Shown: positions 5,393-46,400 of the stretch, in pieces
Layout: the number at the start of each line of letters is the position of its first letter
Position numbering within the stretch: position 1 is the first letter of the stretch
DNA from: a virus
IMG/VR virus record: IMGVR_UViG_3300005747_000802
Span: 1-47,144 of that record
DNA: 47,144 nt
Reading direction: 5' to 3' (one strand)
The notes under the pieces: model-generated
Database searches by the model: none
What the model was told of the DNA's origin: nothing
What the model saw: only the letters and a program-made list of their open reading frames with translations
Made by a program: the position numbers and the translations under genes

Positions 5393-5394
5393 AA

Positions 5395-6960: not shown

Positions 6961-6991
6961 TATTAATAATTTTATTTAATTAATAATGTAG

Positions 6992-7011: not shown

Positions 7012-7024
7012 TTATATTTAATGT

Positions 7025-7996: not shown

Positions 7997-8002
7997 AAAA
8001 AG

Positions 8003-8179: not shown

Positions 8180-8191
8180 AACAATATTACT

Positions 8192-9998: not shown

Positions 9999-10015
9999 TT
10001 AAAAAATTAAATAAA

Positions 10016-10954: not shown

Positions 10955-10971
10955 AATTTAAAAATTAAAAA

Positions 10972-14735: not shown

Positions 14736-14736
14736 A

Positions 14737-27600: not shown

Positions 27601-29654
27601 TATCCATAAAATTTACCTTCTTCCCCCTCAAATTGAGTAAAGGCATCATCAACAAATGCCTCTACAGCTAATAAAGGTTCCATAGTCTGTAGTCTATCTA
27701 TTAACTCTTCTACAAAGAAATCAGTCTTTCCTGAGTTCTTAAGCTCTATAGCTTTATTCTTTAAAGTCACTAGGATTTTCTCCATTAAAGAGTTGTATCT
27801 AGCATCTTCTCTAAAAGTACTTTTCTCAGAAGTTTGTACAGCTAAAGGTCTTACAAAGTTTAAATTAGGAGTAAGTTGTACTATATCTTCAAATTCCACG
27901 TCTTGAACTTCTCCCAAGTCTTCTCCTTGTTCATCTAAGTTGTCTAATTTTACTGGTAAAATATCAAGCTTAGGAGATACTTGAATTCCTAAAGAGTGAG
28001 CTAATCCTTTATAAGAACTCATAGAAGCAGTATGTCTCTTCTTCTTACTAATCTTATAAGAAGTATATTTATCTCCATGCACTGAGTTTATAGAGCTTTT
28101 TAAATCTACTATATGTAAAACTCCTTTATCATCTACTAAAGCAACATCTAAAGTACCTGCTACTCCTCCCCCCTCTACATCTGGGTTACCAATAGTCATT
28201 TGAGGTAATACAATATATCCTTGCTCTCTTTTCTCCTGAACCCAACCATTAAAGTAGTCATATACTTTTTCTATTACTTCATCTTTGATTAGAGCACCAT
28301 CTTCATAAGTCTCTGCTCTACTTCTAATAGTATTTTTTAAATCTTCATCTAGTTCTTTCTCTAAAATAACAGCAGATAAAATCTCATCTATTTGATTACC
28401 CCAACTTCTATTTTTAGTGTAGTCATTGTTGGTATCTTCAAAAGCATAATCTGGAAAAGTCTCTTGTATCCAGTTGGATACTCTCTTGTACAAATTACCA
28501 GATTTATCAGAATAATTAACACCATCATCTGACAAAGAAAAAGATTTACTTTCTAGCATTAATTTACTAGCTACTTCTTTTTGTTCTTTAGTTATGTTTT
28601 CTCCTGTAAATTGAGAAGTTAATATATTATAATCTTCTTGAGAAAGTTCATTATATCTTTCAGAAATTACTACTTGTCTAGTGTCAGTAACCATAGTACC
28701 TAACATCAAACCACTTAGCTTTACAGCTTCTCTTAGAGCTGAAGACTCATTTGAAAAACCTAAAATATCTAATAAACTATTTATAAGTTTTGTTAACCAG
28801 CTCTCATTATTGTTATTTTCTACCTCAGGTTTAATACCAGCTAAATACTCTTGTACTTCTTTATTTGTATATAAAGCAGTAATAAATTCTTCTACGCTCT
28901 CTGCAGCTTGTCCTAACTCTACACCATCTTTGATAGCTTGTTTTCTAACACTCTCCCAAAGAGACATAAATCTCATTATATTTGCATACTCTTTTCCTTT
29001 AAACATTGAAGGATTTTCTCTGTATGCTTTGAATATTCTAACAGTTCCTGCGTGAATTAATTCGTGTAGTAAAGTACTTTCTAAGTTTGTTGCTTGCCTA
29101 GAAACTCTAATTACATTTCTAGCCCCATCATAAACTCCATTTACAGAAATAGGATTACCATCTTCATCATTTTCTACAACATCATCTTGTACTACTATAG
29201 TAAGACCCTCGGGGATATGTTTTTGAATAAGCTTTAAAACATACTTAACTATTGGGCTAGCTCCTTTGTTAACTTGGTCTAGTACTTGTCTAAGAGTAAG
29301 CTCTGTAGGTTCCTGTCCTATCTTTTCACTTTCTCCTTTAAGTACTTCAGTATCACTATTAAAAGATCTTAAATTAACTCTAGCATCTGATCTCTTTTTT
29401 GTTTGAGCAGGTTTTTGATATTGTCTTCCAATTAGATCATTAGTATTTTTAGACCTAACCTCTGAAAAAGTCTGAGATTTAAACTTTTGACTATCTTTAA
29501 ATTCTTTAAGTTCAGAAGCTTTAGGTAAGTAAGTTTCTTCATTACCTGTTACTTTATTAAACTTCTTAATAACTAAGTTAAGCTCTAAATCATTAGAACC
29601 TAAAGAATTTTTTAAATCCTTGTATTCCTGTAAATTTCTGTTTATACAACTCAT
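24696..29654 (-). CDS. giant virion-type protein with zincin protease and PD-(D/E)XK nuclease domains
   Basis: 1652 residues. A zinc metallopeptidase motif LLHELIHAG (His197, Glu198, His201) lies in the N-terminal fifth. About 300 residues later a RecB-like nuclease core is visible: GTLDVALVDD (Asp503) and HIVDLKSS (Asp517, Lys519). Long charged helical/coiled regions follow (about 620-900). The C-terminal third contains hydrophobic helices (NPLLSAANVVVGNLSNLI; MGIIVALMILSLAFG near 1528-1543), suggesting membrane contact. It is the last gene of the giant-gene operon, 3 bases after the ferritin gene. Giant multi-domain proteins next to the RNAP gene are typical of crAss-like phages and are thought to be packaged and injected. 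The domain combination is read here; packaging is inference. Confidence 0.85.
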   Translation of the reverse strand: MSCINRNLQEYKDLKNSLGSNDLELNLVIKKFNKVTGNEETYLPKASELKEFKDSQKFKSQTFSEVRSKNTNDLIGRQYQKPAQTKKRSDARVNLRSFNSDTEVLKGESEKIGQEPTELTLRQVLDQVNKGASPIVKYVLKLIQKHIPEGLTIVVQDDVVENDEDGNPISVNGVYDGARNVIRVSRQATNLESTLLHELIHAGTVRIFKAYRENPSMFKGKEYANIMRFMSLWESVRKQAIKDGVELGQAAESVEEFITALYTNKEVQEYLAGIKPEVENNNNESWLTKLINSLLDILGFSNESSALREAVKLSGLMLGTMVTDTRQVVISERYNELSQEDYNILTSQFTGENITKEQKEVASKLMLESKSFSLSDDGVNYSDKSGNLYKRVSNWIQETFPDYAFEDTNNDYTKNRSWGNQIDEILSAVILEKELDEDLKNTIRSRAETYEDGALIKDEVIEKVYDYFNGWVQEKREQGYIVLPQMTIGNPDVEGGGVAGTLDVALVDDKGVLHIVDLKSSINSVHGDKYTSYKISKKKRHTASMSSYKGLAHSLGIQVSPKLDILPVKLDNLDEQGEDLGEVQDVEFEDIVQLTPNLNFVRPLAVQTSEKSTFREDARYNSLMEKILVTLKNKAIELKNSGKTDFFVEELIDRLQTMEPLLAVEAFVDDAFTQFEGEEGKFYGYSDSIKFLIKSKDSIEEKLKRAEELQSTMYLYDKVFDEIKEIYDRLVMEEAIEVFEGSTLDKLNQLIIKSTTEKNNINNLLVDLQAQVLADASPQSAELSAAVKEQIKKLKKQLEAAQGVYEQSKKDGKPQRVLVRQKNKITNLKNLIEKLGDQSGLDAKDFKKELLYGAEQDIDFVDLWVRPFIQSPSKVLANFTRKIKQAFERARITSWEASMDFTKGFEKFRDYQKSLGINQGNVTEFNKKFYKVVGKHYSYVSNIDFEKYRLARNELYETLKQMEETGATQDEISSVRKSWYKNNTTNLPMQDVTVTNPITKETVVMIKGLETIRAERLEIFRGNEQKTDRWMRAAAAKGELSMPNANFKDNTIDNFTAQEKEYYDLLMYYHFSALQNYPEVNLSTSFKVPSIAKVSNDRVRENGIVNYLKYKFGSSYQEVSEDIEMYGAKNKVIPLTYMQPMDIEDVSLDLGSSTMRFYDASLQYKARVELKSLGDSLLRTVQKTKPNETGTAGKVLSRAAKALGMEVPDKKEGQSNIEFALTELIAHHIYGKNSKREIIYGKDANKIVGSLMGIASFTQIGGNPLLSAANVVVGNLSNLIESAAGKHFNTKNWAKALVQYEKNEVNFIKDFTNPVNKSKLGQLVDIYDALQGEYKDKFGRKLTMGGMKKAWSKDTWFYLQHKGEHQVQVTAMIAKMLSTPATLNGKQINLLEAYSVGKDGKLTIDPNTIVNGKKVGNQLVISEVQSSLHRINKDMHGVYNSFDSPLLERYSVGKLLMMYRKFVVPGFMRRFSGMRVEQESGELLEGYWKTFANLMLNDFTELRKFLTPGTESQLTSLEKENVKRTLTEMGIIVALMILSLAFGKMTDDEDEDSLLYYPYYLAYRVRTEMMFFFNPLDTLRMFRTPTIAYSVVEKLMRLLIQLTNPFETYERRSGMAKKGDNKLKIKGLKLLGINGYTANPKEALDMMKMFTN

Positions 29655-29657: not shown

Positions 29658-30146
29658 TTATAAGTATTTTTCTACATAGTGGTCGAAAACTAACATATCA
29701 GAAGTTAGTTTATATTGGTCTAATAAATCTAGGGCTTTACCAATTTCTTCATCTTGTTCTTTACAGAATCTTAATGCTAGTTCCTGCAAAGAGGGTTTCT
29801 TAAGTACTGTAGCTAATTCATACAGCTTTTCACATTGTCTAGTAATTTCTAATTCATGCTCTAAAGTTTTCTCTAATACATCTCCGCAGCTAGTAAATTC
29901 CATTACAGGAGATTGAATAGGTTTTAAATTAGGAGTAATGTTATAGTTAGTCAAATAATCTATTGCCCATTCTGCATGTGCTCTTTCTTCTTTTGCATAT
30001 TTATTATATAAATCAGATGTATTAGCATATCCTTTAGTCTTTAACCATAGAGACATATATTTATACAATCTAGAACTATATTCTTCTTGATTTATGCGAT
30101 GATTTACTACATCTATTATTTTTTCATTTAATAATTTATTTTCCAT
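29658..30146 (-). CDS. ferritin (FtnA-like, ferroxidase-competent)
   Basis: 162 residues, the normal length of bacterial ferritin. Aligning by eye with E. coli FtnA, all ferroxidase ligands are kept: Glu21 (in INQEEYSSRLY), Glu54 and His57 (KEERAH), Glu98 (LEHELEIT), Gln131 and Glu134 (KEQDEE). The four-helix bundle and the MSLWL and DYLTNYN landmarks are present. No rubredoxin domain follows, so it is not rubrerythrin, and it lacks the Dps subunit-interface ligand pattern. It should oxidise Fe(II) and store iron, probably as a 24-mer. The gene is wedged between the giant genes (6 and 3 bases), behind an A-rich leader, so it is expressed with virion proteins. Confidence 0.93.
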   Translation of the reverse strand: MENKLLNEKIIDVVNHRINQEEYSSRLYKYMSLWLKTKGYANTSDLYNKYAKEERAHAEWAIDYLTNYNITPNLKPIQSPVMEFTSCGDVLEKTLEHELEITRQCEKLYELATVLKKPSLQELALRFCKEQDEEIGKALDLLDQYKLTSDMLVFDHYVEKYL

Positions 30147-30152: not shown

Positions 30153-33100
30153 TTATTTAAAACATTTTGTTATTTCTTCTTCAACTTCTTGAGGAGACAG
30201 CCCTAAACTATCTGCCCAGTCCATTAATTTTCGTTGTTTTTGAATAGGATTATTTGTTAATTCAAAAATATTATTCTCAACTAATACTTTAGAATATTTA
30301 CCTGACAATTTACTAAATAAATTTCTAGCCTCAGGAGAATTTCTATCTATTTTAGTAGCAGGTGTAGAAGATGTTCCAACCTCACTAACTTGTTCTACTG
30401 GTCCTAAAGCAGTTTTTAAAATATTTTTATATCCTTCTATTTGAGCCTCACTTAACTTACTTCCACGATTTCCTGCAACATTAAGAACTTTTACTCTATT
30501 ATCAATTAAAAAAGCAGAGAGCTCTTCTGCTGTAGGATTTACAATATAAGGTTTATTGTTTTTCTTTAATAAACTTACAGTAAGTTTAGAACCTGCAGAA
30601 TTTACATTTCCAAAAATTACAGTAGCATCAGATGATTTTACATTTTGTTCTGTGCGAGGGTTGTAATCAGAAGAAGCATCTTCAGTTAATCCATATTCTT
30701 TTAAACTAGTATCTGAACCCTTTTCAGTTTTGTAGCCCTTAGGTGCTACTCCACCTGTTTCAATACCTAGAGCTTTAGCTACTTCTAAACCTAATCTGTC
30801 TGCACCAGTCTGTCCACCAGAGATTACTTTAGTAACCTCACTAGTTTGTTTTGATGATTTTACTTTAGGTTCTTTCACTCCACTTTCTTTTAAGTATTGT
30901 TCTGCTAAAGATGCATAATCAGTTCCTGAAGCACTTCCTCCTTCAGTTGTAGAAGTTTCTTCTGTTACTGCTGGTTCAGAATACTTTAACACATTATCAA
31001 TAGACCACATATAAGGTAACACTTTTTCGTTGTAACCAAATTGTCTAGTCCTAACATACTGCGAAGATACAGAATTTAAATTGAAATCCAAAACATCTTC
31101 AGTAGAATTTTCAACTAATTTTGCATTTTCTATACTTTCATCTATATTATTTGTAAAATAACCTTTGTAAGTAAGCTGAGTGTTATTAATAAAATCTCTT
31201 ACTACAAAATGACCTTTTAAGGTAGGGTGGTAAGAAATAGTTTTACTTATTCTATATGTTCCAGCACTTTTTCCACCATTAATTTTAAGTACAGTTGGGT
31301 TAATAATTTTATGAGTTTTAGAGTTAAACTTTATACCATGAGAATTTAAAATAGTAGAGATAAGATTCTTGTATTCTTTTTTATCCTCGTCTTCTATATT
31401 TTTCATATTAGTAACAGAATGAAACTCCACTATTCCAGAGTCTATATCTTTAAAGAAAACTCTAGAATTCTTTTTGTTATCTTCTGAAATGTCAGTGCTT
31501 AATTCTTCAATTCTATCAGTAGCTTCTTTTATAACTTTAAAAGCTGTAGCGTTATCTATAAAATTTAAATTAAACTCATTACTTTTCATCAATGAGAACA
31601 TCAAAGAAGTTTCATACCTAAATTGTTGCATAGGCATTCCTAATAAATTTTCTATTTCTGCTTTATCTACTCCGTAAGGATTTAAAGTACTAAGATAATC
31701 TTTTAATTTTATAAGTCTATCATTAGTTTTAGTTAAGAAGTAAGGGTCAATATATCTTACATAAGAACCATTTTGGAAAGTTAATCCATTCTTAACCATC
31801 AAATAACTGATAAGTTTAGGGAATAAACTATCAATGTCTTTATCTCCCTTTTTATTTCTACCTATGATACTTAACTCAGCCATTAACTCTGCTACAAAAC
31901 TAGGGTTGCTACTAGTCCAAGAGTCAATTTCTACATCATACATAGTTCTATTAGAAGTCTCAAACTTAATAGGTTTAACTAATAGGTATTTTAAGAATTT
32001 GTTATTAGGATATTCTTCTCTAAGTTTATCTATTGTTACTTTGATAGATTTGTCAAATAATACTTCAGGGTTTAAATTTAGATGACTCCCCATTAATCTA
32101 GAAACCACAGCCTCATTTACTTTAAAAGCATTATCTGCAAATCTCATATAGTTTTCTTTAAATCCTTGTGTAACAGTATTTACTATGGATTTAAAAAATC
32201 TAGACTTTGAAATAAAGAATGAGTCAGAATTTTCTAATAAAGCTGCTGCAGCTTTTACTTCTTGACCTAAAAGAGTATTTGTAAATAAATTTAATATTTC
32301 ACTAGGGCCTGACTCTTCTGATTCTTTTATTTCTTTAATTACAAAATTATTTATATCATTAGTGTTCTTCTCAGGATCTTTTTTCACAACTTTTAAACCT
32401 AATGCTTTCAAAGGTTCTTCTAATTGTATCTCCTCAAAGCTGGATTTAAACCCTTTTATTAATGAAGACAGTTGAGCCATAGGTGTTACAAAGTCAGTAG
32501 AAAAATCTTCAGCATTTAAAAAAGCATCTACAACTGCTAATTGTATTGAATAGTTTTCTAACATTTCTTCCTTAGAAATACTTCCTTCTTCTACATTTAA
32601 GATAGAGATTAATTTTTCATAAAATTCATTAGTATTTTCTATTACTTTAGAATCAAATCCTTTACTTTCAAAAGCTGCAATTTCATTTTTACTAAATCCT
32701 TTTTTAGATAAGAAAGAGTTTATAATAATACTTCTCATAGCTGATTTCTTATCCTTACTATCTTTAATTATTTTAGAATACTCTTCAGCTTTTTTAGTCT
32801 TAATATTAGAGTCTAGAATACTTTTAATATTATTTAACTCAGCTACCATTTCTTGTGCTGCAGCTGTTAACATTATTTCTGGACTAACTCCTTGTCCAAT
32901 TTCTGATAATACTATATTCAATATACTAGGAGTAAGATTAAATACAGCAGCATCTTGCTCATTAGCATTATCTGTCATATTAGAAAGAAGAGCTGAGATA
33001 ACATCATTAATTCTTACTTCTTCTTTAGTTTTTAAAGATAATACTGTATCACTTTTAAAACCATTTCCTTTGAAATAACTACCTCCAGAAAAATTAGCTT

Positions 33101-36100
33101 GTCTTAATTTTTGAAATAAAACATTAAATAAAGCTGCTGGTCCAATGTTTTCAGCACCTACTAAAATATTTCTTCTTGACCTTCTTTTAAAATTTCTAGA
33201 AAAAGAATTTTTTCCTGACTCAACTGAAACTTTCCCTTCATTTTCAAGCCTAGTTCTAAGGTCTTTAATAATAGTCATACTAGCAGGTGTAGCTGCAATT
33301 TTCTTATTACCTTCGTTACTGGCAAGTTGAGTCTCTAATCTATGTAATAAGTTGTTAGTCTCTTTTTGGTTTAAACCTTTTATTTCAGAAAAGTTTTTGC
33401 CTTTATAATTTTTCAAGTTGTCTCTAACTTGACCTTTATATTTTTTACTAAACTGAGCAGGAGAAATATACAACTCATTTTGTTGTAAAGCTAGTTCCTT
33501 AGCTCTTTCATTTAGTTTTAATAATTTTCTAAGCCCTACACTTTGAGCTTTTTCAGCGTTTTGTAAAAAGAACTCAGACAAAGTATCAAACATTGACTCA
33601 TTACCTTCCATAAGAGCTTTAAATGTTTTATTTACACTTAAGTACTCTAATTCTTTTTTGTATTCATTTGCAAGATTGTTTTTGATACTTTCAAATAATT
33701 CTTTGTATCTATCGTTATCCTTAACATTTTTTTCATGCAAATATTGTAGGTATTCTGAATGAGCTTTTTCTAAAGCTTTGTCTATAGTTTTTTCTTTTAG
33801 ATAGTCTCCATAGATAACTTGTTGTTGTAAGTCATTGACATACCACTCAAATGCTGTAGCAAATAAGGAGTCAATATCAAAGTCAGCACCTGATAACTTA
33901 ACAACCTCAAAAGGTAAGTGTATCATATTACCCATGTAAGAAGGTACAGTATCTACTATTTTCATTACTACCATTGAGTGCTTATCTTGTGTAGGAATTC
34001 TTACACCCAACTGTAGTAATATTTCTGGTCTAATTACATCTCCCTTTTTAAGTCCAAATTTATTTAAAACTTTTTCAGACACAATAACTTCAGAAACATA
34101 AGCATTCAAAGTATCATCCCATACTCTGTGTCTTAACCTGTGTTCTACATTTCCTTTTGTTTTGTTTCCTAAAGTTTTAGTTACAAGATGATACTCACCA
34201 TTTACAAATATTACTTTAGATTTATCTTTTTCAGATAGTTTGTTAAATTCTTCTTCAGTTATTACTTTAGAATTGTGTTGTACTTTAATTCCAAAGTCAG
34301 AAACTAATGTATATTTGTTACCTGCTTTTTTATGAGCTAATACCTTTTTAGATAAAAATGACAGGTACATAGCCTGGTATTTCTTCTGTATTACAGGTAG
34401 GTCCATACTATACTTAGGAGTTTCTCCTTGTAAACCTTGGAATAAAATAGACATCAAAGGGTCCTCTGTAGATTGCTCCATAGAAGCTCTCATAGAAGAC
34501 ATTAACTGTTCCCAATTAGGGTCTACCAAATTACCATCTATATCTATATTAAATAAAGAAGGAATTTTAACCTCTTCTAATCCTTGTTTTATTCTTTCTT
34601 GTTGTATTTGAAGAAAAGCTTTTTGTAGCTCAGTAGGATTAGTATCTTGGTCCATAAAATAAGCAGTCATTATTTGATCTTGCTCTGTCCAAATTAACTG
34701 AGATTTTTGTGAACCATCTACAACTTCTACTTTAAAACCATCTGTATTAACTTGCTCTCTAATAGTAGAAGAAGATAATTCCTGGACTAGAGAAAGGTCT
34801 ACTCTTCCATTATCAACTTTATTAATATTAGATTTAAAAGTTTTTACTGCAGAATCAAAAGTAATAAAATCTAGCTCCTGTCTGTACTGTTTTTGTAATA
34901 AATCATATAATACTTCTTTACCAGGCAAAGGTTCAAAAATATTATTAAAGATTACATCATACTTTTTATTTTTCCAAGCTTCCAGTAACTCTTCTTCTGT
35001 AATATCAGTTTGTTTTAATTTAGCAACCTGAGATATAGTAAGAGTATGTAAAGATGTTTTAATATAACTAAACATATCTCCTTGTACAATCTTTTTAGGT
35101 TGTAAAGTAGCATTGTTAGTTTCTAATGTTTTTAACTCTTGACTAGAAAGAGGAGTCACTAAATCTAATCCCTTATCTATTTTAGTTAAAACTTTTTCTA
35201 CTGTATTAGTTACTTTTCCTAAAGCTCTTAAATATTTTGTTAGAAAACTTACCGTACCTATACTTTGTGCATCTGTACTATCTACAGGCTTTTGTTTATC
35301 AGAGTCTATTAACTCTTTATCTACTCCATGTCTTGTAGCTTCAAAAGCAGAAATTAACTCTTCTTGAGATTCTACTATAGCATATTTAACATTGCCAACA
35401 TGCATAGAAGGTCCATTAGCAATTAATTCAGCATTTCTTTTAATAACATTTTCATGGTTTTTAAATTTAGCTGCATAGTTACCATGAATATATAAATTAA
35501 ATTTGAAACTATTTAAAAAGTCTGTAACAAAATATTCTCTTAACTTAGAAAGATTTACTTGTCCATTTCCAATATAAGACATAGGAATAGTATCAGACTT
35601 GTACTCACTATTCATTAGACCACTATCTATAAGGTCTTTCTCATATTGAGAATATTCTTGTGATAAGTATTGGTCTAGTTGTTCTTTTACTGTGTTTTCA
35701 TTATCTAATTTAGTATCTAAATCAAATGTATCTTTTGATAATAAATCTTCAAACTCAGCAGGAAAATTAAAAAACTTGTTACCTCTTGCAGTATTAATAT
35801 CTATTAACCCAGTTGTTTCATCTATCTTTCCATGATAATCTGGAGAGTATTTTATTTTAGACTTTTTAACTTCGTCATCTCCATTTAGTATTTCAACTTC
35901 TTTTCTTACTCTTTTAATAGAAGCTATCTCATGAGACAATAAAGAAAACATCTCTTGAGCACCAGTTTCATTTAAAAAGATAGGGCTTTTCTTACTTTCA
36001 GTAATATAAATATCTGCTGGCATTAATACAGACAATACAGTAGACTTACCTTCATTTTGACCTAAATGTACCCATCTAAGTTTTTGTTTTATAACTTCTC

Positions 36101-39100
36101 CTGTGGTTGGGTTTTTATACTCTATTGTTTTGCTTTCAGTATCAGAAAATAAAGCCATTGAGAATAGCTCAGCTGCAGTATCATCTAATCTTTTAAAAGA
36201 ATTAGCTGAGTCTTTTCTTTTAAATAAAGCTTTGGTATCTCTTTGTACTAAACCATCGTGAACTGCAAAATCTAATTTACTAAATACATACTTTGCAAAT
36301 TCTGGATTCTCTCTGTACTGCTCACTACTAAACATAGGATTGTATCGAAGCATTTCAGAAAGCATCTGAACTTCATACATATCTATATAACTATCCATAG
36401 TGTCAGTATAGAATGTCTGTATTCCTTCTAAGTCATTGTTGTCTAATAACTCAAGAAGTTGTACATAATTATCTTCTTCACTTAATATTTTATTAAGCTT
36501 CATTAATTGTTCGTAAATATAAGAAGGGTATATTTTATCATAAATTTGCTTACCTTCTGCATTCAAGAAAGTAGACTCTGTTAAATGAGGGTTAAATACA
36601 GCATTATATCTAGCAACTCTTTTAGACATACCTATAATGTTAACATCTTTAACATTTTGGTCTTTTTCTGATTTAGTAAATAAACCAGCTACACTATTTA
36701 TAGTATTACCAGAACTTGCGACAGTGTTAATTAAATCATGGAATGGAGTTACACTTTCTTTTCCTTCTACTGCAAATATAGACTCTATACTTCCTTTGTA
36801 GGTATTGTAAAAATTATTTAAGAAAGCATCTTCTTTTATTAATTTTGAACCATCTCTGTCTAAAAGACTCCATTTAATATAATTAAGTTCTAAATTTATG
36901 CCCAAGTCTTTGTAGACTTTTTTAATATCTAAAGCCTTTTTAGAAAGCTCTTTTGATGTATTAACAGGTTTTTCTAGTATTTGTTTTATTTTTAATACCT
37001 TAGATAATACGTATTCTTTTCTGTCACTTTGCCCTTCTAGTATATTAGTATGCTCATTACTCCACTCTTGTACTTGTGTGTCATCTACTCCCTTAGAATT
37101 AGAATGGTACATAGAGGTAGTCCTTGTCTTAGGATCCATCTCTACCATATACATATTTCCTTTTATCTTATAAAAGGTAGAAATAAAGTCATTAAATAAA
37201 GGAGAGTTTTCTAACTCACTTATATTTCTAGCTTCAATCAAATCTTCTACTAAAGCAACAGTCATATTTAACTCATCAGCTATATCTTTTACTAAATTGT
37301 TATATACATCTTTAGAAACATTATCTGCAGTAGCTAATATTCTAAACTTGTCTAATAACTGAGGTTTAGGAGTGCCTACTAAATTTCTTTCAAGATACTG
37401 GTAAGTTTGGAAAGGGTCTATACTAAATTTATAAATATCTTTTTCAGGTAAACCTAAACTATAAATATCTGCATAAGCTTGTGTAAATCCTAAATAAGTT
37501 TTCATTCTTTTAGACAAAGTACCAAAACCACCAGTCTCCCAAATACTTTTTTGAAATCTTACAAAATCTCCATCATCTTCATCTATGTCATCTTCTATTT
37601 GTGTATCATAAAGTTTTAATTTCATAGATACATCTTTTCTTATCTCTTCTTTTATTGTATCCAAAGATAATAAAAATTGATAATCTTTAAATTTTCCTTT
37701 TGATTCTATGTAAGCTACCTTATTAGTTACATCATTTGTATCATAAGATGATGGGTCTAGTTTTTTTACCATCTCATCATAAGCTTCGTCAAAAGACTTG
37801 ACAGATACTTTATTAGTAGAATTTGTTTTAGCTGATTCATATAGCATTTGAGCAATACCACTTACTACTATATTACTCATTCTGTTATTTAAAAATATGT
37901 AATCAGGTCTAACTACTCCATCTGTACCTTTTCTATTTACATTACTTCCATATACTTTGAAAGCAGGATTTTTTCTAATAACAGAATTAGCCTTAGGTTG
38001 AGCATTTTTAAAATCTCCATTGTAAATATCATTGTAAAGTGTAGATAAACCAGAAGACATCACTTTGTCTATAAGGTCTAAGAATAACAAATATAATTTT
38101 TTAAGACCTTTTGCTTCTGCTATTTTTTGTTTTTTAACATCTTTTTTAATAGCTTCTTTTGCAAAATCATCTGACATTTGCTCTTCTAGCCATAACAAAG
38201 ATAATTCTTTGTTAGAAATTTTAGCAGGTCTACCTAGCTCACCACTAATAATATCTTTAAGATCTTTTAATTGTTGAGCTGTAGGTTTGCCAAATTTCTT
38301 AGCTGCTTCTTTATAATAGTAAGCCTGCTCTTCTTCAGATAAATACATTCTAAATACTGCGTGAAAAGCTTCGTGGTATTTAACAGAGCTATTTATTTTA
38401 TCTTTTAGGTAAATAACACTATTAAAAAACATACCTAAGGCATTACCACCTTTAAGAACATTTTCTAATCTTCTTACAGGTATACCTAATATCTCACTAA
38501 GTCTTTGTGCAGCTTCTTCCCTAGTTTCAAACTTTCCAAATCCTTCTGTAGTAAATGGAGTCTCATCATCTTCAGCTACTTCTATTTCTGGAGCATCTGA
38601 TTGTTTATCCTCATCTTTTTTAGACTCTTCTTCAGAAGTTTCTACTGGTTTAGTTCTTTTAAAATCTACGAGCTGACCAACTGAATCAATTATTTCATCT
38701 AAAGTTTCACTACTTTGTGTATTATTAACTATAAAACCTGTCCTATCTAGAAACTCAGTAAGGCTACTTAATAGCTCTAGTCCTTCTATAACATTTTCAT
38801 TGTTATCGGCATCAAGGTTAGCCATTACTGTATCTAATATTTTTTGTATACTAGCTACAGGCCCATCATCTTCTTTTTTAACTGGAGGTTCAGATTCTAC
38901 TTTAGGCTGTGGCTTAGGCTTAGCTGTAGGTTTAGCAGCTTGTTTTTGTAACTCTGAATGCTTTTTCTTACCCTTTTTATAATTAATAGAATTAGGTTTT
39001 ACTTGTAATTCATTTCGTAAATCTGAAGATATAGACATCTTGTCCACTTCGTAAGTTTCTTCTGTAACTCTTTCAAAATCTGTAAGCTCTACTTCATACC

Positions 39101-42100
39101 CAGGATTTTCTTTATTACCTGCAATAAGAGATTGAAGAACTTTTAAGTGCTGTTTGAAAACTGTATTATAATCTTCTAAATTATTTATATCTCCTAAATC
39201 TATAATTAAGGAAGAACTTTCTTTAGATAGCTCATTAAGAATATTGTTATACTGTACTTCTTCATCAAATGATGTTACTTTACCATTTACTTTTTCACCT
39301 AATAGCTCATTTGCAACATACATTATTTTAACACCACTTGGAGTGTTAACAGCCATAAGCTTAGACGACTTACCATTTACAAAAACATTTGTGGCTGTTT
39401 TGTTTTGATAAGTAGATGAGTTTTTTTCCTTATAGGAAGCTCTAAACTGGATATTAGCTAATCTTTTACTTGCAACATTATCCTTCCAGTTTTTGTTATC
39501 AACTGCTAATCTTATTTTAACAAAACTAAGTCTTTCGTCTTTTCCAGATACAACTACTCCTACAGGAGCACCATTCACTGTAACTTCTGTATCAGATAAA
39601 GAAACAAGCTCATCTCCTTTCCTACTAAATAAGTCTGTTATTTTTTCTAATATACCATTATAAATAGCTTCTACTGTTTCTTCTTCTGTTTTAGCTACAT
39701 AAGGTACTTGTAAAAATGGTATATGGTAAGAATTTCCTAATTTAATAACACCTCTAAGTTGATTAGAATCTGACTTGTTAGTCATACTACCTATTAATGA
39801 AGATCTTCTTGTTTTTACTTTATTACCTTTAATACTAGTAGTAGATAAAAAGATACTTAATTTGTTTAACTCTTCAGCATCAGCTTTTTTATCTAGTTTC
39901 TGAGGTGTCTCACTACCTTCTCTCCAGGCATATACAACAGTTTCTGATTTGTTTGTAACGTATATAGTTTTGCCAAATCCTAAATCTATACCATGAGTAG
40001 TTGGTTCGTATTTATCTCTTAGTAGAGGTTGTTCTGATTTGTCATAAATAGTACTAAAGCCAGAGTGTTGTAAGTTTAAAACTTTTGTTAAGTATTTTTC
40101 TACCCTAGAAACATCACCTGTCTTTTCTAATTCTTTCTTAGAAGTTTCCCAAATGTCATTAAGAGCTAAATAGTTAGCTACGAAAGCTTCTCCTTCTGGT
40201 GTAAACTCAAAAGTTTCTGGATCAACTAATGGGTTTTTTTCATTTTGAATTAAAGCTAATAAATTTTTATCTGTAAGGTCTAATGCTCCACCTTTCTTAT
40301 GTTCAAATCTATTAGGGTCTAATAATCCTCCTATAAGAACTTGACCTTGAGCTTTGGCAGGATTATCTCCTAGTATTTTAGAAAAATCAATATATACTTC
40401 TACTCTTCTACCAAGTCTATTTCCTGCTTTAATTTTAAACTTAGGGTGTTCCCATTCAGAATCTGTTAACTCTACTTCTTCCCCTAATCTTACAGATATA
40501 ACATTACTTCTTTCACTATCTGTTAATTCATATAAGAAAGCATGAATAGCCTTTTGAGCAGCAGCTTTTTGCTCTTCTGTGAGATATTTATTATATATCT
40601 CAGCTAGTTTAGAATTACCTATGTAGAATTTATTTTTATTATCTTTTTCTTCTTTTCTTAATTTACTTAACTCTTCTTTAATTCTTTTTAATTCTTCAGA
40701 TAATTTTTTTGAATTAGCTTTAGAAGTAGCAGTATTTAAATTATTTAAAAGTTTAATAGCTTTTTCGTAGATATTCTTTAGTAGTAATAGCTTGGCAGCT
40801 TTAGCTAGAGAAGTATTATTTTCTACTTTTTGTCTCTGTTCTTTAAACCAATTTAAAACTCCTGCTTCATCTAAAGAAGAAGCTTCTGGATTTTGTTCCA
40901 TAGCTTCTTTAGCATTGTTGATGTTTTCTTGCTGTTGATCTATCTTTTTATCATGAGCTTCTAAATCTTTAGAAATCTCTTGGTACTCCAGCATCAAATC
41001 TACATTTACATTTCTAATAGTAAGTAGATTATTTAATTCTTTTTTACCTTCTTTAGATTTTTCAACAGCTTCTATAGCTTTAGACATAGCTCTATAGGCT
41101 TTAATAGCTGCCTTTTCAGAGTTATCTAAATCTTTAGTGTCTTCTTTTTTAAGTAACTTTTCTAAATCCTTTTTTTCCATCAAGAATAAATCTGCTACTT
41201 TTTGTTTTACATTTTCTTCTACATTATTTTTGTATTGCTCATCTGTAAGCTCTGCTGTACTTGTATCTATGTTATCCATTAATACATCTACTATATCTTG
41301 AGGCATAATAGAAACATAAGCATCATTTACTTTTAATTTTAATGCAGAGTTGTTTATTTCTCTATTAGTTTCTCCTTGATACTCACTGTTAAATACATCT
41401 CTATAAATAGGAGCTAATGTATTTTTAATTAAGTCATTTGTAATATCAATAGCTTTCTTATTAAGTTCTTCTACTACAATAGCATTTGTAATAAGTTCTC
41501 TACTAATAGTATCTGCATTTTTTAAATATCCAAGTTTATTCTCTAGTTGAGTTTTTAATTCAGATATTTGATCTATTTTATTACTAACATACCTAGCTCT
41601 CTCTTTAGATTCTTTTTCAAGTTGGGCATCTGTTTTATTTTTGTTAGGGTCTATTAACTCAGAAGATTCTGTCTCAGCATCTAAAGCTTTAGGATTAATT
41701 AACAAAGACTCTCTTATTTCTGCACCTGTACTATTTTCAAGTATTGCTATAGTTTCTTTAAAATCATCTAGTTTTCCAGCTTCTGCAAAAGTAATAATAT
41801 CATTTACTAGCTGCCCTGTTGTATTTACAGCTAAAGATACATCTTCTTGGTTAGCTTCATTTCTTTCTATATCATTCTCATAAGAAGAGTGGATAACAGC
41901 TCCTTTATATAAATTTTTAAAACTAGAACTTTCAATTATTTTATTTAAAGCAGTAACTTGTCCTCCAGCTTGTGCTCTTTCTTGCTTAATTTCAGAAACA
42001 GTTTCCATTACACCACCTGCCCACAAAGGACCACTAGCTCCAAGAACTTTTGATACGTTAGGGCTACCTACCATACCTGTAAATAAACCAGCTATACCCT

Positions 42101-43454
42101 CTTCCCAAGCATGGTCAAAATCTGTATAAGTATCTACAGCAGACTGTAAATACTGCCCTATAATGTCATTTGTAAAAGATAGGCCTTCTCCATCATTAGC
42201 TCTTAAAAGAATTTCTGAAGAGTAGTTATTAATAACTCCTTGTTGCATTTCTTCGTTAAATTCCATTAAAGGATTACCAAGAACTCTTAAAGCAGTTACA
42301 GTTTTTCTTTTTAAATTATTCTCTGCTAATTCATAACCTGTTTTAGTAGAACCTTTTATTAGTCCTAGTCCTAATTTATCTTTTGCTTTTCTCTTTAAAT
42401 CTCCAACTATAGAATTAGGCCCTAAAATTTTATCTATACTAGTACCTTTAGTTAAAGGTTTTAATAATGTTTTAAATTGTACAAAATTAGAAATACTAAG
42501 TAAGCCTACATTCATACCAAACTGAACATTAGCCTTTTGAGTAGACAGTCTTTCAGCATCTTCTGGACTATACCCTTGAGATATTAATTCATTGTAAAAT
42601 TCTTCTTTTCCATGGATGGCTTCTATTCTACCTTCACCTACTGCAGAACCCATAAGACCAGCTCCTTGAGAAGCTAAGTTGATTCCACTTAATGTTTTAC
42701 TAGTAGTTTCTAATTCCTTTAAAATATCAGCAGCTATTTTAGGTTGTTGTTGTCCTAATTTAAATAAATCATCTCCATTTTTTACACCATACTCAGCATA
42801 TTTTTTAACTAAGTCATCTGTTACTTTACCTCCATTCTTAGTTAGAGCTTTTCCTAACTGACCTGCTAATCTTTTACTAAATGCTTTTGTTAAACCTGCA
42901 TAGGCAGCTCCAGAAGTAGCCACCATAGATAAACCTGCTCCAATGGTAAAACCCATATTTTTATAAATAGTATCTGCCCAAAAGTTAGCAGTACCTAGCC
43001 TTTGATACCAAGGAGTATCTCTCTCTTCTCTAGTATAATATAGAGGATTATTTTTTTCTACTGATTTTTGCCATTTAGACATTAAGTTAGAAAAACTATT
43101 ATCTACTAATTTATTAGCATCCCAATTAAGTAAACTTTCTCCAATAGCAAAGGCTGTTCCAATAGTAGAATCAAAAAAAGTAGAAGCAGCTAGAGTACCC
43201 ATTTGTAAAGTAGCTCTTCCCCATTTTTCTCCTGCTGTCTGAGCTAAAGCTCTCTGATCTTGAGAATAACCTAAATTACTAGGATTCCAGTCTATACCTT
43301 TTTCTAAAAAGGTTTGCTGCTCTTCTAATGACATACTTCCAGTCAAGTTAAAAGCATTTCCTTCTAAAAACCCTTGTTGCATTAAACTATTAGGGACAAT
43401 AGCTGAATTAGGTTGTAAGTTTTTTGATTTTAAAAGATTTAATAAATCACTCAT
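30153..43454 (-). CDS. giant virion RNA polymerase-like polyprotein, with zincin and YpsA/SLOG-like domains
   Basis: 4433 residues, one uninterrupted frame of 13.3 kb. (a) Residues 1-480: hydrophobic, Ala/Gly-rich segments (for example 167-191), like phage ejection proteins. (b) About 480-1000: charged coiled coils. (c) A Lys/Pro linker near 1505-1530, then a zincin motif YHEAFHAVF (His1694, Glu1695, His1698). (d) About 2500-3300: RNA polymerase-like region with RIPTQDKHS, GNMIHLPFEVVKLSGADFDID; the DFDID loop (Asp3191, Asp3193, Asp3195) is the metal-binding signature of the double-psi beta-barrel RNAP of crAss-like phages (phi14:2 gp66 type). (e) About 4205-4345: a Rossmann domain with VISGGQTGADR, of the YpsA/molybdenum-carrier (SLOG) group. 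Probably packaged and injected to transcribe early genes. Confidence 0.88.
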   Translation of the reverse strand: MSDLLNLLKSKNLQPNSAIVPNSLMQQGFLEGNAFNLTGSMSLEEQQTFLEKGIDWNPSNLGYSQDQRALAQTAGEKWGRATLQMGTLAASTFFDSTIGTAFAIGESLLNWDANKLVDNSFSNLMSKWQKSVEKNNPLYYTREERDTPWYQRLGTANFWADTIYKNMGFTIGAGLSMVATSGAAYAGLTKAFSKRLAGQLGKALTKNGGKVTDDLVKKYAEYGVKNGDDLFKLGQQQPKIAADILKELETTSKTLSGINLASQGAGLMGSAVGEGRIEAIHGKEEFYNELISQGYSPEDAERLSTQKANVQFGMNVGLLSISNFVQFKTLLKPLTKGTSIDKILGPNSIVGDLKRKAKDKLGLGLIKGSTKTGYELAENNLKRKTVTALRVLGNPLMEFNEEMQQGVINNYSSEILLRANDGEGLSFTNDIIGQYLQSAVDTYTDFDHAWEEGIAGLFTGMVGSPNVSKVLGASGPLWAGGVMETVSEIKQERAQAGGQVTALNKIIESSSFKNLYKGAVIHSSYENDIERNEANQEDVSLAVNTTGQLVNDIITFAEAGKLDDFKETIAILENSTGAEIRESLLINPKALDAETESSELIDPNKNKTDAQLEKESKERARYVSNKIDQISELKTQLENKLGYLKNADTISRELITNAIVVEELNKKAIDITNDLIKNTLAPIYRDVFNSEYQGETNREINNSALKLKVNDAYVSIMPQDIVDVLMDNIDTSTAELTDEQYKNNVEENVKQKVADLFLMEKKDLEKLLKKEDTKDLDNSEKAAIKAYRAMSKAIEAVEKSKEGKKELNNLLTIRNVNVDLMLEYQEISKDLEAHDKKIDQQQENINNAKEAMEQNPEASSLDEAGVLNWFKEQRQKVENNTSLAKAAKLLLLKNIYEKAIKLLNNLNTATSKANSKKLSEELKRIKEELSKLRKEEKDNKNKFYIGNSKLAEIYNKYLTEEQKAAAQKAIHAFLYELTDSERSNVISVRLGEEVELTDSEWEHPKFKIKAGNRLGRRVEVYIDFSKILGDNPAKAQGQVLIGGLLDPNRFEHKKGGALDLTDKNLLALIQNEKNPLVDPETFEFTPEGEAFVANYLALNDIWETSKKELEKTGDVSRVEKYLTKVLNLQHSGFSTIYDKSEQPLLRDKYEPTTHGIDLGFGKTIYVTNKSETVVYAWREGSETPQKLDKKADAEELNKLSIFLSTTSIKGNKVKTRRSSLIGSMTNKSDSNQLRGVIKLGNSYHIPFLQVPYVAKTEEETVEAIYNGILEKITDLFSRKGDELVSLSDTEVTVNGAPVGVVVSGKDERLSFVKIRLAVDNKNWKDNVASKRLANIQFRASYKEKNSSTYQNKTATNVFVNGKSSKLMAVNTPSGVKIMYVANELLGEKVNGKVTSFDEEVQYNNILNELSKESSSLIIDLGDINNLEDYNTVFKQHLKVLQSLIAGNKENPGYEVELTDFERVTEETYEVDKMSISSDLRNELQVKPNSINYKKGKKKHSELQKQAAKPTAKPKPQPKVESEPPVKKEDDGPVASIQKILDTVMANLDADNNENVIEGLELLSSLTEFLDRTGFIVNNTQSSETLDEIIDSVGQLVDFKRTKPVETSEEESKKDEDKQSDAPEIEVAEDDETPFTTEGFGKFETREEAAQRLSEILGIPVRRLENVLKGGNALGMFFNSVIYLKDKINSSVKYHEAFHAVFRMYLSEEEQAYYYKEAAKKFGKPTAQQLKDLKDIISGELGRPAKISNKELSLLWLEEQMSDDFAKEAIKKDVKKQKIAEAKGLKKLYLLFLDLIDKVMSSGLSTLYNDIYNGDFKNAQPKANSVIRKNPAFKVYGSNVNRKGTDGVVRPDYIFLNNRMSNIVVSGIAQMLYESAKTNSTNKVSVKSFDEAYDEMVKKLDPSSYDTNDVTNKVAYIESKGKFKDYQFLLSLDTIKEEIRKDVSMKLKLYDTQIEDDIDEDDGDFVRFQKSIWETGGFGTLSKRMKTYLGFTQAYADIYSLGLPEKDIYKFSIDPFQTYQYLERNLVGTPKPQLLDKFRILATADNVSKDVYNNLVKDIADELNMTVALVEDLIEARNISELENSPLFNDFISTFYKIKGNMYMVEMDPKTRTTSMYHSNSKGVDDTQVQEWSNEHTNILEGQSDRKEYVLSKVLKIKQILEKPVNTSKELSKKALDIKKVYKDLGINLELNYIKWSLLDRDGSKLIKEDAFLNNFYNTYKGSIESIFAVEGKESVTPFHDLINTVASSGNTINSVAGLFTKSEKDQNVKDVNIIGMSKRVARYNAVFNPHLTESTFLNAEGKQIYDKIYPSYIYEQLMKLNKILSEEDNYVQLLELLDNNDLEGIQTFYTDTMDSYIDMYEVQMLSEMLRYNPMFSSEQYRENPEFAKYVFSKLDFAVHDGLVQRDTKALFKRKDSANSFKRLDDTAAELFSMALFSDTESKTIEYKNPTTGEVIKQKLRWVHLGQNEGKSTVLSVLMPADIYITESKKSPIFLNETGAQEMFSLLSHEIASIKRVRKEVEILNGDDEVKKSKIKYSPDYHGKIDETTGLIDINTARGNKFFNFPAEFEDLLSKDTFDLDTKLDNENTVKEQLDQYLSQEYSQYEKDLIDSGLMNSEYKSDTIPMSYIGNGQVNLSKLREYFVTDFLNSFKFNLYIHGNYAAKFKNHENVIKRNAELIANGPSMHVGNVKYAIVESQEELISAFEATRHGVDKELIDSDKQKPVDSTDAQSIGTVSFLTKYLRALGKVTNTVEKVLTKIDKGLDLVTPLSSQELKTLETNNATLQPKKIVQGDMFSYIKTSLHTLTISQVAKLKQTDITEEELLEAWKNKKYDVIFNNIFEPLPGKEVLYDLLQKQYRQELDFITFDSAVKTFKSNINKVDNGRVDLSLVQELSSSTIREQVNTDGFKVEVVDGSQKSQLIWTEQDQIMTAYFMDQDTNPTELQKAFLQIQQERIKQGLEEVKIPSLFNIDIDGNLVDPNWEQLMSSMRASMEQSTEDPLMSILFQGLQGETPKYSMDLPVIQKKYQAMYLSFLSKKVLAHKKAGNKYTLVSDFGIKVQHNSKVITEEEFNKLSEKDKSKVIFVNGEYHLVTKTLGNKTKGNVEHRLRHRVWDDTLNAYVSEVIVSEKVLNKFGLKKGDVIRPEILLQLGVRIPTQDKHSMVVMKIVDTVPSYMGNMIHLPFEVVKLSGADFDIDSLFATAFEWYVNDLQQQVIYGDYLKEKTIDKALEKAHSEYLQYLHEKNVKDNDRYKELFESIKNNLANEYKKELEYLSVNKTFKALMEGNESMFDTLSEFFLQNAEKAQSVGLRKLLKLNERAKELALQQNELYISPAQFSKKYKGQVRDNLKNYKGKNFSEIKGLNQKETNNLLHRLETQLASNEGNKKIAATPASMTIIKDLRTRLENEGKVSVESGKNSFSRNFKRRSRRNILVGAENIGPAALFNVLFQKLRQANFSGGSYFKGNGFKSDTVLSLKTKEEVRINDVISALLSNMTDNANEQDAAVFNLTPSILNIVLSEIGQGVSPEIMLTAAAQEMVAELNNIKSILDSNIKTKKAEEYSKIIKDSKDKKSAMRSIIINSFLSKKGFSKNEIAAFESKGFDSKVIENTNEFYEKLISILNVEEGSISKEEMLENYSIQLAVVDAFLNAEDFSTDFVTPMAQLSSLIKGFKSSFEEIQLEEPLKALGLKVVKKDPEKNTNDINNFVIKEIKESEESGPSEILNLFTNTLLGQEVKAAAALLENSDSFFISKSRFFKSIVNTVTQGFKENYMRFADNAFKVNEAVVSRLMGSHLNLNPEVLFDKSIKVTIDKLREEYPNNKFLKYLLVKPIKFETSNRTMYDVEIDSWTSSNPSFVAELMAELSIIGRNKKGDKDIDSLFPKLISYLMVKNGLTFQNGSYVRYIDPYFLTKTNDRLIKLKDYLSTLNPYGVDKAEIENLLGMPMQQFRYETSLMFSLMKSNEFNLNFIDNATAFKVIKEATDRIEELSTDISEDNKKNSRVFFKDIDSGIVEFHSVTNMKNIEDEDKKEYKNLISTILNSHGIKFNSKTHKIINPTVLKINGGKSAGTYRISKTISYHPTLKGHFVVRDFINNTQLTYKGYFTNNIDESIENAKLVENSTEDVLDFNLNSVSSQYVRTRQFGYNEKVLPYMWSIDNVLKYSEPAVTEETSTTEGGSASGTDYASLAEQYLKESGVKEPKVKSSKQTSEVTKVISGGQTGADRLGLEVAKALGIETGGVAPKGYKTEKGSDTSLKEYGLTEDASSDYNPRTEQNVKSSDATVIFGNVNSAGSKLTVSLLKKNNKPYIVNPTAEELSAFLIDNRVKVLNVAGNRGSKLSEAQIEGYKNILKTALGPVEQVSEVGTSSTPATKIDRNSPEARNLFSKLSGKYSKVLVENNIFELTNNPIQKQRKLMDWADSLGLSPQEVEEEITKCFK

Positions 43455-43457: not shown

Positions 43458-46400
43458 TTATCTTAAGTTTAAATGTACATGCCCATTATGGTAAAATGCT
43501 CCAATTGCATTGGCTATTTTTTTCATTGCTTCCTCATCTTTAGTAGTCCCATCAGCATTTCTAACTACAAAATCTATTGCTCTTCCGTATAAATGGTTAG
43601 AGTTAGGAGCTGCTTCATTGTCTGGGTTTTGCATTAATTGAGCCTGCTCATTTAAACTTCTTAACCCTGATGTTATATCTATGTAAGTATTTTCAGGCAA
43701 GTGCTGTAATGCCATATATAATTGTTGATTTAATACAGGAGCTACAGTTGGGTCAATTCTAAAATTTTCATCCTTAATTTTTACTTTATCGTCAACTCCT
43801 TGTAAAGTAATTGCTGTTGACATAGGAACACTGTTTTCATAGGTTTTGTATATATATTGTTCTCCTGTCTCTGTATTTAAATCTAAAGGTGTATAAGCTA
43901 CTAAAGTCTGTAATAAATCTGTAAGAATTCTATCGTCTAATTTTTCAGTACTCACAGGAGTATTAAAGTCTTGTTTAAGTGTTTGAAGTATCTCACCAGC
44001 GGAACTTGGATTTGCAAGATAGAAAGGGTTTCTAACTATCATTTGAAATGCACTTTCTAAAAGAGCTACTTCTTTTTCACTACCTACTTCTATATTTAAA
44101 GGTACTTTATTATCTCCTATTTTTACAGAGCCTATTAAACTATTTTCTTTGTTTCTTGTCCAGACAATATTTATATCATTTTGAGAGTATGTAGCCCCAT
44201 AAGAATTATCCTCTTTAAATAAACTACTAGAAGAATAACCTTTAGTATCTATATCACTCATAACTTGTTGAGTTCTTTTTAATTCTTCTGCTTTTATTTG
44301 AGTATCTAATTCAGTATCATATATTATTTTTTTAACCATAGCATCAGACATAGGAATTTCTACCCAGTCTGTACTAATACTTTGTTTTTCTAAACCTTGT
44401 TTAGCCTGATTGTATTGATTAGATTTATCATCAATTGGTAAATTAGGAATTCTGACATCAAACATATATTTATCTCTACCTATATCATATCTTACTTGCC
44501 ATTCAAAAATTTCCTCCTTCCCATTAATATTAGTAGTTATTTTTACCCCTTTGCCTTCGTCTAATGAAGTAATATCAACTCCTTTCAGAACATCAAAAAG
44601 ATAATCAGCTTGTTCCTTTTCTAGTTGTTTGTCAGTAGATACTATTCTAAACTCTGAAGCATCTACACTCCTACTTAATAAATCTTTACTTATAAAAGTA
44701 GCTACATTAGTTACTAAATTATTTATAGAAGTGTTGGTAGCATTGTCTGTCAATGCAAAATTAGTTACAGTATAAGAATTGTTATCATAAGTCCTAACAT
44801 CAGTCATGGCTTTTGTCATCTCTTCAAATTCTGCTTGTTTTTGTGGATCCGAAATAATATCTCCAATAGTCAAATTAACAAACTCTTCTTCTACCATATT
44901 TCTTTTAAACTGTTCGTAAGCTGGACCTATTTTATCAATCTCTGCTTGAGTTTCTTCGTCAACTTCTCCTATAAACATATTTGGATCATATAAAGCCTCT
45001 AATCTAAAAGGGCTTTTAAAATCATCCCATTCTTTAGTATAATATTCAGATGTACTAGTATAGTAGTCTTTAAATTCTTCCCAAAATAAAGGATCTTTAG
45101 AAAGGTATCTATATTTAAAATAATCTTCTTCTACAGCTTTTAATTTTTCTTCGTATGTAGCATTTTTTATTTTGTTTTCTATCTCATCTGTTTCTACTCC
45201 AAATCTATCAAATACAGCATTTTTGAAATTTTCTAATATTTTAATATTATTTTCGTAATCTAGACTTGTTTGATTTAAAGTATTATAAGAACTATTATTA
45301 TTTACAAACCCTCTATAACGAGTTACAGCATCATTATATAAAACCTTAGCTTCATTTATATCTTTAATAATTCCATCTTTTATCATAAGATCAAAAGCAC
45401 CTCCTTCTTCTATTAAGTCGTCAAAAGTACTCATAACATTTGCTGTGATAATTCCGTTTTCTATAGTTACATCTATACCTATAGCTCCCATTATTGCAGC
45501 ATTCTCTTCACTTAAGGTTCCAATAAACTTATCAGATTCATCTTTTATCTTCTCATCAATACTTAATTTATGCTCTTCGTATTTTTGGTAAGAAGTAGTT
45601 ACTACATTTTGTAAATCATTTATACTAGTTTTTTCAAAAGCTTTTCCAGTGGATTCTTCTACTGCTTCTATAATTTTACTATCATGCTCTGAATAGACAC
45701 CTTCCTTAACTTCTACAGGAGTCCATATATCTTGCACATTAAACTCTTCATCATCTGAACCTGTCCCTTTTCCTCCTCCTAGTATGTTTCTTTTCTTAGT
45801 CATATCTGTTTTTTCATAAGAAATAAACCTAGATACAGGTTGTAACACATCCATTTGATAATCTTCCCAAGTAGCTTCTCTTCCATAATTATCTAAAAAT
45901 TGTGCTTTATAAAAAAGTACATCGTCATTATTAGAGTTCCATAAACTTTGTCCCATAGAATATCTACCATCTACAGTATTAACTACTACATCCATTATTC
46001 TCTCATAAGTCCTATCCTCTGAGTAAATCTTTGTCTGCTCGTCATATACCTCTATTTTCCCTGTAAGTGTATTTGTTCTATATTTAATACCACTATCTTC
46101 TAAGATACTTGTAGTGTTAGCTCTTACATACTTGTCCAAGAATTCAGATGTATTTTCCATATATGGAACATAATCTAAAAATTGATAGTCTAGTTCAGTT
46201 TTAGAAAAAGCTTGCTTAGGCATTCCATTTTCATTATAGAAATTATGAACACCTTGGTCTAACTTACCTGTTTTCTTCTTCTCTTGATAAAATGGTGTCC
46301 ATACTTTAACATCCTCATTTATGGCAGCAACTCTTTCATCTTGCATAATAGATGAAGTCAAAGCAGTTATTTTTCCTTTAGATACATTTCCAGTAGCATA

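Follow-up and report, generated by a model that had tools for sequence, protein, structure and literature searches.

What kind of protein a phage encodes in one open reading frame of 4433 codons, and how so long a chain would reach the bacterial cytoplasm, are the questions raised by this locus. The window, i.e. the whole stretch of DNA analysed here, is a 47,144-base IMG/VR virus record, a fragment without head genes, and the giant frame runs uninterrupted along its minus strand from position 43454 to 30153, as read in the initial annotation. A relative with 97% identity (L002) encodes this protein in a version of 4281 aa, and frames of 3772-4593 aa are found in 17 other complete relatives; because comparable frames are kept in all of them, the giant frame is not an accident of assembly. 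Its main parts are the following:

30153..43454, minus strand: giant virion RNA polymerase (vRNAP) ORF, 4433 aa, ATG start, comprising module A, zincin, RNAP module B, C-terminal slot and tail
38535..43454, minus strand: module A, residues 1-1640, by gene order and size the positional counterpart of a separate upstream cargo protein (phi14:2 gp67, crAssphage gp45)
38361..38375, minus strand: HEAFH zincin motif, residues 1694-1698; H, E, F and H invariant in 19/19 relatives
38181..38186, minus strand: invariant Glu pair, residues 1757-1758, in the motif EE(L/M)AD, candidate third zinc ligand (invariant in 19/19 and in 16/16)
32484..35963, minus strand: RNAP core, residues 2498-3657, from the AF2 model, the Foldseek match to 6VR4 and the profile match to phi14:2 gp66
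33870..33884, minus strand: DFDID catalytic loop, residues 3191-3195, invariant in an alignment of 29 sequences

The giant ORF encodes an RNA polymerase and is, as an object, of a known kind. The AF2 model of residues 2498-3657 (pLDDT 74.6, pTM 0.71) has its best Foldseek match among solved structures in 6VR4, the polymerase gp66 of phage phi14:2 (E 1.9e-26, prob 1.00; TM 0.60 on the query, 1276 alignment columns), and its other foldmates are RNAPs of the multisubunit type. An active site near residue 3193 had been claimed from the sequence; the DFDID loop indeed occupies residues 3191-3195, with GNMIHLPFE at 3175, and structure prediction finds a polymerase fold around this point, so that the idea survived the examination proposed for it. 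Relatives, which turned out to be diverse, were gathered from viral contigs by searching for a nucleotide pattern of GADFDIDS. In the alignment of the core with 28 of them, at 21-33% identity (one at 98%), DFDID is invariant, and there are lysines that are invariant or nearly so. BLASTP aligns residues 3140-3271 with phi14:2 gp66 at 30% identity (E 2e-8), and the profile match of the core to gp66 reaches E 6.7e-26; the same profile finds crAssphage, phi14:2, cr11_1, cr8_1, cr128_1 and DAC15, with best E-values from 4e-20 to 5e-38. General searches returned less: a sequence search of the PDB with the giant matched the C-terminal cpYpsA domain only, PHROGs gave nothing for the polymerase, and among database phages none came near the window protein, with 20-32% identity in the matches of better coverage. 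An N4-type virion RNA polymerase was considered and set aside; the T7-like single-subunit domain had no Pfam match, and the fold matches are to 6VR4 and the multisubunit-type RNAPs instead.

Fold, motif and profile matches thus agree with the initial reading of a crAss-like, virion-type RNA polymerase. The transcription block adjoins a gp65-like gene (window 24696-29654), with the same gene order in relatives, and among 24 records (22 of the window's lineage and two reference phages) the phi14:2 portal was matched in 20 and the phi14:2 major capsid protein (MCP) in 16; these homologues point to a crassvirus affiliation of the lineage. In phi14:2 the products of g065-g067 are annotated in the record from virion MS/MS, and in crAss001 gp47, gp49 and gp50 were found in virions, with six copies of each as a possible load (PMC10172136). 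By homology to these proteins, the 4433-aa protein is most likely a polymerase that would be packed in a crAss-like phage particle and ejected from it into bacteria.

The view that the chain is far larger than known phage examples had to be given up. Annotated crassvirus polymerases span 4070-4946 aa (crAssphage gp44, 4070; cr109_1, 4328; cr11_1, 4388; cr8_1, 4422; cr52_1, 4464; cr118_1, 4946), a size range to which the 17 relatives add their own, and a review mentions crassvirus polymerases of up to ~6000 aa (PMC10136315). A zincin-polymerase of 5515 aa, with a C-terminal cpYpsA domain and one cysteine near its C-terminus, is encoded by locus L190 (IMG/VR record G063, 1619-18163). Loci whose frame extends for 1600 residues or more ahead of DFDID number 113, partly redundant; in 110 of them the ORF has an HExxH motif 1200-2000 residues before DFDID. 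Judged by these motifs, zincin and polymerase on a single chain are a lineage-wide and widespread trait, and the layout occurs in gut Suoliviridae too. The correction matters for annotation as well, in that several crassvirus polymerases bear misleading names: DprA-like protein, DNA helicase and nuclear pore complex-like protein are found at L194, L195, L196, L199 and L200 (cr109_1, cr113_1, cr124_1, cr52_1 and cr118_1), the helicase name in cr118_1 stemming from a genuine C-terminal SF1-type helicase. In the cultured Flavobacterium phage FpV4 (L197, 7184-20047), a "virion structural protein" of 4287 aa has a polymerase-like DYDID motif, an HExxH motif near the C-terminus and a single cysteine at 4286; the partner has a cysteine at residue 3.

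Of the further domains proposed for the chain, the zincin stands at the level of its motif, HEAFH preceding DFDID by ~1,500 aa in the giant ORF. The site is probably active, since H1694, E1695, H1698 and E1757/E1758 are invariant in 19/19 relatives. The AF2 model of this region was poor (pLDDT 55.5, pTM 0.37); no significant fold match was obtained with it, and the region had no Pfam match. Hydrophobic N-terminal segments, and the injection channel that they were taken to form, were not recovered. About 1.6 is the usual Kyte-Doolittle level of transmembrane segments, and the best 19-residue window in residues 1-600 reaches 1.12, such that no segment of transmembrane strength is present there. 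As for module A, residues 65-217 show weak homology to phi14:2 gp67 (BLASTP, E 0.034), and direct BLASTP of the whole giant against phi14:2 gp67 and crAssphage gp45 gave no useful similarity; the homology of module A rests on position and order, because BLASTP to these proteins is uninformative.

The surroundings of the giant gene, and the two cysteine codons with which the argument continues, are:

43458..46643, minus strand: upstream protein of 1061 aa with zero cysteines and a C-terminal M15-type peptidase
30162..30164, minus strand: sole cysteine codon of the giant, residue 4431/4433
29658..30146, minus strand: ferritin-like gene between giant and partner, 162 aa, PF00210 (E 1e-20), Cys 87, 105 and 128
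24696..29654, minus strand: gp65-like partner (module C), 1652 aa, HELIH motif, positioned after the RNAP as in phi14:2 gp65
29646..29648, minus strand: sole cysteine codon of the 1652-aa partner, residue 3 (MSCINRN)
29412..29430, minus strand: site of an extra in-frame module of 743 codons in the L002 partner gene, from the comparison of window and L002

The 1061-aa protein is a probable further cargo or tail protein. By-eye comparison indicates that the C-terminus of the partner is similar to that of phi14:2 gp65, and a weak SprT-like match was found in it (E 0.0094). The extra 743-residue module of the L002 partner (L002 23345-30532, compared with window 24696-29654) has an HEIVGH motif, with imperfect short repeats at the insertion site. 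The ferritin-like gene sits between giant polymerase and partner in both the window (29658-30146) and L002 (22853-23341). On the plus strand the window holds a set of amide-bond genes (57-587, 10016-10954, 11772-12575, 12568-12963, 12951-14735 and 14737-16362), whose members are a RimK-like ATP-grasp protein, a class-I glutamine amidotransferase/peptidase C26, a phiEco32-like COOH-NH2 ligase, a gamma-glutamylcyclotransferase (AIG2-like), GATase_6 and Amidoligase_2; they perhaps form a small-peptide or surface-modification pathway.

The special feature of giant and partner is the position of their only cysteines, at the end of the one and the beginning of the other. A cysteine is found among the last six residues in 62 of 64 polymerases of the lineage, with cysteine elsewhere at 0.24 per 1000, while in 89 control genes, chosen by us from few genomes, it occurs in the last six residues in 8, in the first eight in 5, and overall at 8.9 per 1000. 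The difference in terminal cysteine between the 64 relatives and the 89 control genes (Fisher, 3e-31) has to be read with the common descent of the polymerases in mind, so that they cannot be counted as 64 independent cases. In 52/64 cases a cysteine lies within the first eight residues of the downstream protein; in the remaining 12, better start codons, or a gene beyond a ferritin-like insert, supply the N-terminal cysteine for all but L090, which lacks the C-terminal cysteine and in which the N-terminal cysteine of the downstream protein is unclear. In phi14:2 the cargo proteins have cysteines at 1797/1797 (gp67), at 3 and 2179/2180 (gp66) and at 3 (gp65), and nowhere else; in crAss001 they stand third from the end of gp47, whose gene is on the opposite strand, at 5 and 2404/2412 of gp50 and at 5 of gp49. 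The pattern recurs in crAssphage, cr11_1, cr8_1, cr128_1, DAC15, Dulem virus 41, cr109_1, cr52_1, cr118_1 and FpV4, several of the crassviruses that show it also holding some internal cysteines, e.g. in the polymerases of the Intestiviridae; crAss002 gp33, which as annotated has no N-terminal cysteine, is an exception. Joints that are fused carry no cysteine, nor do the starts and ends of the chain, the terminal cysteines standing at ends that face a neighbour.

On this rule, a small insert that separates giant from partner should have one cysteine at either end, and this prediction was made beforehand. All five such inserts have exactly two cysteines, one per end:

L092 insert: 142 aa, Cys 3 and 140
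L093 insert: 147 aa, Cys 3 and 145
L101 insert: 165 aa, Cys 3 and 162
L192 insert: 142 aa, Cys 5 and 140
L191 insert: 345 aa, Cys 4 and 344

The ferritin-like protein of the window, having no terminal cysteine, probably does not belong to the proposed chain.

The polymerase gp66 of phi14:2 shares with the giant the core fold, DFDID, the place before a gp65-like gene and the C-terminal cysteine; it differs in being an unfused protein of 2180 aa next to a separate gp67, in its N-terminal cysteine, which the fused giant lacks, and in that no cpYpsA domain was found in it. The giants of the Suoliviridae (cr109_1 gp53, 4328 aa; cr52_1 gp34, 4464 aa; cr118_1 gp28, 4946 aa) are likewise single chains, with HExxH ~1500 aa upstream of GSDFDID, a C-terminal cysteine and an N-terminal cysteine in the partner, the frames of cr109_1 and cr52_1, in which the standard code gives numerous in-frame stops, being read with TAG as a residue. 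They differ from the window protein in their low sequence identity to it and in their C-terminal cargo, DprA-like by the depositors' annotation or, in cr118_1, an SF1-type helicase. In crAssphage (Carjivirus communis) an RNAP catalytic module and a zincin-bearing module are again present, but the zincin protein gp45 is separate, with its cysteine at 1956/1957, and the RNAP (gp44, 4070 aa) is fused to the downstream module instead. The nearest functional analogue of the giant is the vRNAP of N4 (gp50, Schitoviridae), a polymerase of giant size that is injected and has an HExxH domain; it is Cys-free like the body of the window protein, yet of T7-like single-subunit fold. N4 gp50, gp51 and gp52 (3500 + 644 + 150 residues, L201) have zero cysteines and so no terminal ones, which suggests that ejected cargo generally avoids cysteine and that crassviruses retain it at the joints only. 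Finally, the polyvalent proteins (PMC5512222) and the viral NAD/ADP-ribose domains (PMC9503650) resemble the giant in that injected proteins of several domains combine zincins with effector domains that can be exchanged.

Exchange of this kind is seen at the C-terminus of the giant. The slot, as we call the region that follows the polymerase module and precedes the short Cys-bearing tail, holds in the window:

30834..30843, minus strand: direct repeat TAGTGAGGTT, on the N-terminal side of the cpYpsA module
30429..30827, minus strand: cpYpsA (SLOG) domain, residues 4210-4342, PF12694 (E 9e-29), absent from L002
30378..30387, minus strand: direct repeat TAGTGAGGTT, on the C-terminal side of the cpYpsA module

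The match to PF12694 scores 100.5 bits against a curated cut-off of 26.2 and covers positions 1-138 of 145; PDB entry 3imk is matched with E 4e-15. The Rossmann-type domain noted earlier at this place is accordingly a cpYpsA/SLOG domain. It is a clean in-frame indel between phages of 97% identity: the 10-bp direct repeats, 456 bp (152 codons) apart, bracket it, and the junction in L002 keeps one copy. A role as sensor, also suggested at the outset, is possible, but the domain is accessory and its gain or loss recent, the 97% identical L002 doing without it. Among 63 tails, Pfam found DUF7831 in 6, cpYpsA in 3, NADAR in 3, and ART-PolyVal and GP30.3 in 1 each, and PHROGs gave a DprA-like match in 1; no Macro domain was found in 78 records. 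The cpYpsA and NADAR cases fall on separate branches of the polymerase tree, and at the place where L084 carries NADAR, a close sister of L084 shows sequence unrelated to it. NADAR-like segments in L100, L103, L165 and L168, with phrog_1017 at E 8e-4 (L100), shared similarity and no PDB match, were not counted, the evidence being weak, and a weak NADAR match in G038, below the cut-off and overlapping the RNAP core, was taken as chance. For the cr109_1 tail, the SLOG reading was drawn from two things, its similarity to L165 and the name "DprA-like" given by the depositors; neither Pfam nor the PDB had a match for this tail. In L096 (record G025) a cpYpsA-like domain is, by eye, seemingly circularly permuted relative to that of the window, with GGQTG after and not before NSAG. 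Viral SLOG and NADAR domains are described as typically standalone, RNA-virus polyproteins apart, and have been proposed to counter host NAD/ADP-ribose signals (PMC9503650). The slot thus swaps domains, often of NAD+/ADP-ribose families, which may plausibly deliver counter-defence early, as fusion to the polymerase would bring them in before the expression of any phage gene.

How the long chain, its end cysteines and its slot are to be understood can be argued in several ways. The initial annotation took the chain for a polyprotein that its own zincin cuts into channel, protease, polymerase and sensor. The invariant and hence probably active site would suit such a role, low-complexity linkers are visible at ~1490-1535, 1600-1630 and 4165-4205, and zincin processing of multidomain phage proteins has been proposed (PMC5512222); the reading is nevertheless quite unlikely, and self-cleavage gained no support from the analysis. 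The vRNAP of N4, which has its HExxH domain in the C-terminal part, has been studied as an intact recombinant chain of 3500 aa (PMC12633501), phi14:2 gp67 has, by reading, no HExxH, such that cutting is not universal, no cleavage site was identified in the giant, and modules that are split appear to be re-linked by terminal cysteines, the opposite of a need for cutting apart. The cysteine pattern, in turn, might be a by-product of constraints on the DNA, such as translation coupling and overlapping start and stop codons, or of an overall avoidance of cysteine. Tight packing of the genes and AT-rich genomes, with TGT in 55/59 terminal cysteine codons, lend this a little colour, but we regard it as very improbable. 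The cysteine lies 1-6 residues from the end, with as many codons to the stop and varied flanking DNA; the pattern is kept in crAss001, cr128_1 and DAC15, where module A is encoded on the other strand, and is therefore not due to gene overlap; and general avoidance would strip the terminal cysteines too, as in N4. Rather doubtful, though to be taken more seriously, is the possibility that the terminal cysteines serve as a shared metal site, as a redox switch or in docking, be it on the portal or on some other protein of the virion, in neighbours that form no direct Cys-Cys bond. The rule is known as a sequence pattern, one cysteine per end would fit a site shared with other proteins, and thioredoxin-like proteins are often encoded in crassvirus genomes (annotations). 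A shared metal site would, however, require more ligands, and the restriction to neighbour-facing ends, the disappearance of the cysteines where neighbours are fused, and the inserts with exactly one cysteine per end all speak against such uses.

A similar choice arises for the slot, whose domains (cpYpsA, NADAR and others) might regulate the polymerase as sensors of NAD-type ligands and have nothing to do with host defence. In favour of this are their fusion to the polymerase, the ability of SLOG domains to bind signals of the ADP-ribose type (PMC9503650), and the N4 enzyme, whose C-terminal domain inhibits its own polymerase (PMC12633501). That domains of unrelated families replace one another at a single site and are missing from close relatives fits the position of a cargo better than that of an integral regulator, and we consider regulation unlikely.

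The account that we favour, as the somewhat more probable one, is that of an A+B giant that would be packed, threaded into the cell and linked to its neighbours by cysteine or by fusion, with swappable cargo at its C-terminus. The giant unites the first two cargo modules, A and B, as one chain, with a zincin-site N-terminal module, a gp66-type polymerase, the variable slot and a short tail. It would be packed in the head like phi14:2 gp66 and crAss001 gp47/gp49/gp50, be threaded partly unfolded through the tail, refold in the cell and transcribe early genes. The order of the cargo modules is fixed as A-B-C, and they would be kept on one string either by fusion, of A+B in the window and the Suoliviridae or of B+C in the Intestiviridae, or, where the genes are separate, by pairing of the C-terminal cysteine of one protein with the N-terminal cysteine of the next. 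The link would most likely be a disulfide, formed within the virion and broken by reduction in the host cell; as the bacterial cytoplasm is reducing, it would form late or after lysis, and disulfides have been described as stabilising the tail of crAss001 (PMC10172136). Exclusion of cysteine from the body of the chain would spare a protein that has to unfold from mispaired bonds, and the slot domains, delivered at time zero, would plausibly blunt host defence. The strongest independent support for an end-to-end injected chain comes from the prediction borne out by the inserts, together with the separate families that share the pattern. In its most specific form, which we put forward tentatively and at a little under an even chance, the proposal is one of an ordered protein train: A, B, C and small adaptors would be coupled head to tail by disulfides, with cysteine purged elsewhere, one threading event would import them all together with the NAD/ADP-ribose cargo, and the bonds would be undone in the host cytoplasm.

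The literature searched, mostly outside subscription papers, contains no report of the cysteine pattern or the slot domains of crassvirus polymerases; prior notice is possible, and judged by this literature both the cysteine rule for the ends and the swappable slot look new. The slot would place candidate counter-defence domains on the proteins that would enter first, and provides a list to be tested against NAD-based defence. For the ordered passage of megadalton cargo through a tail channel of <50 Å in crassviruses, N4 and other podoviruses, a chain bonded end to end, if true, would be a simple physical answer.
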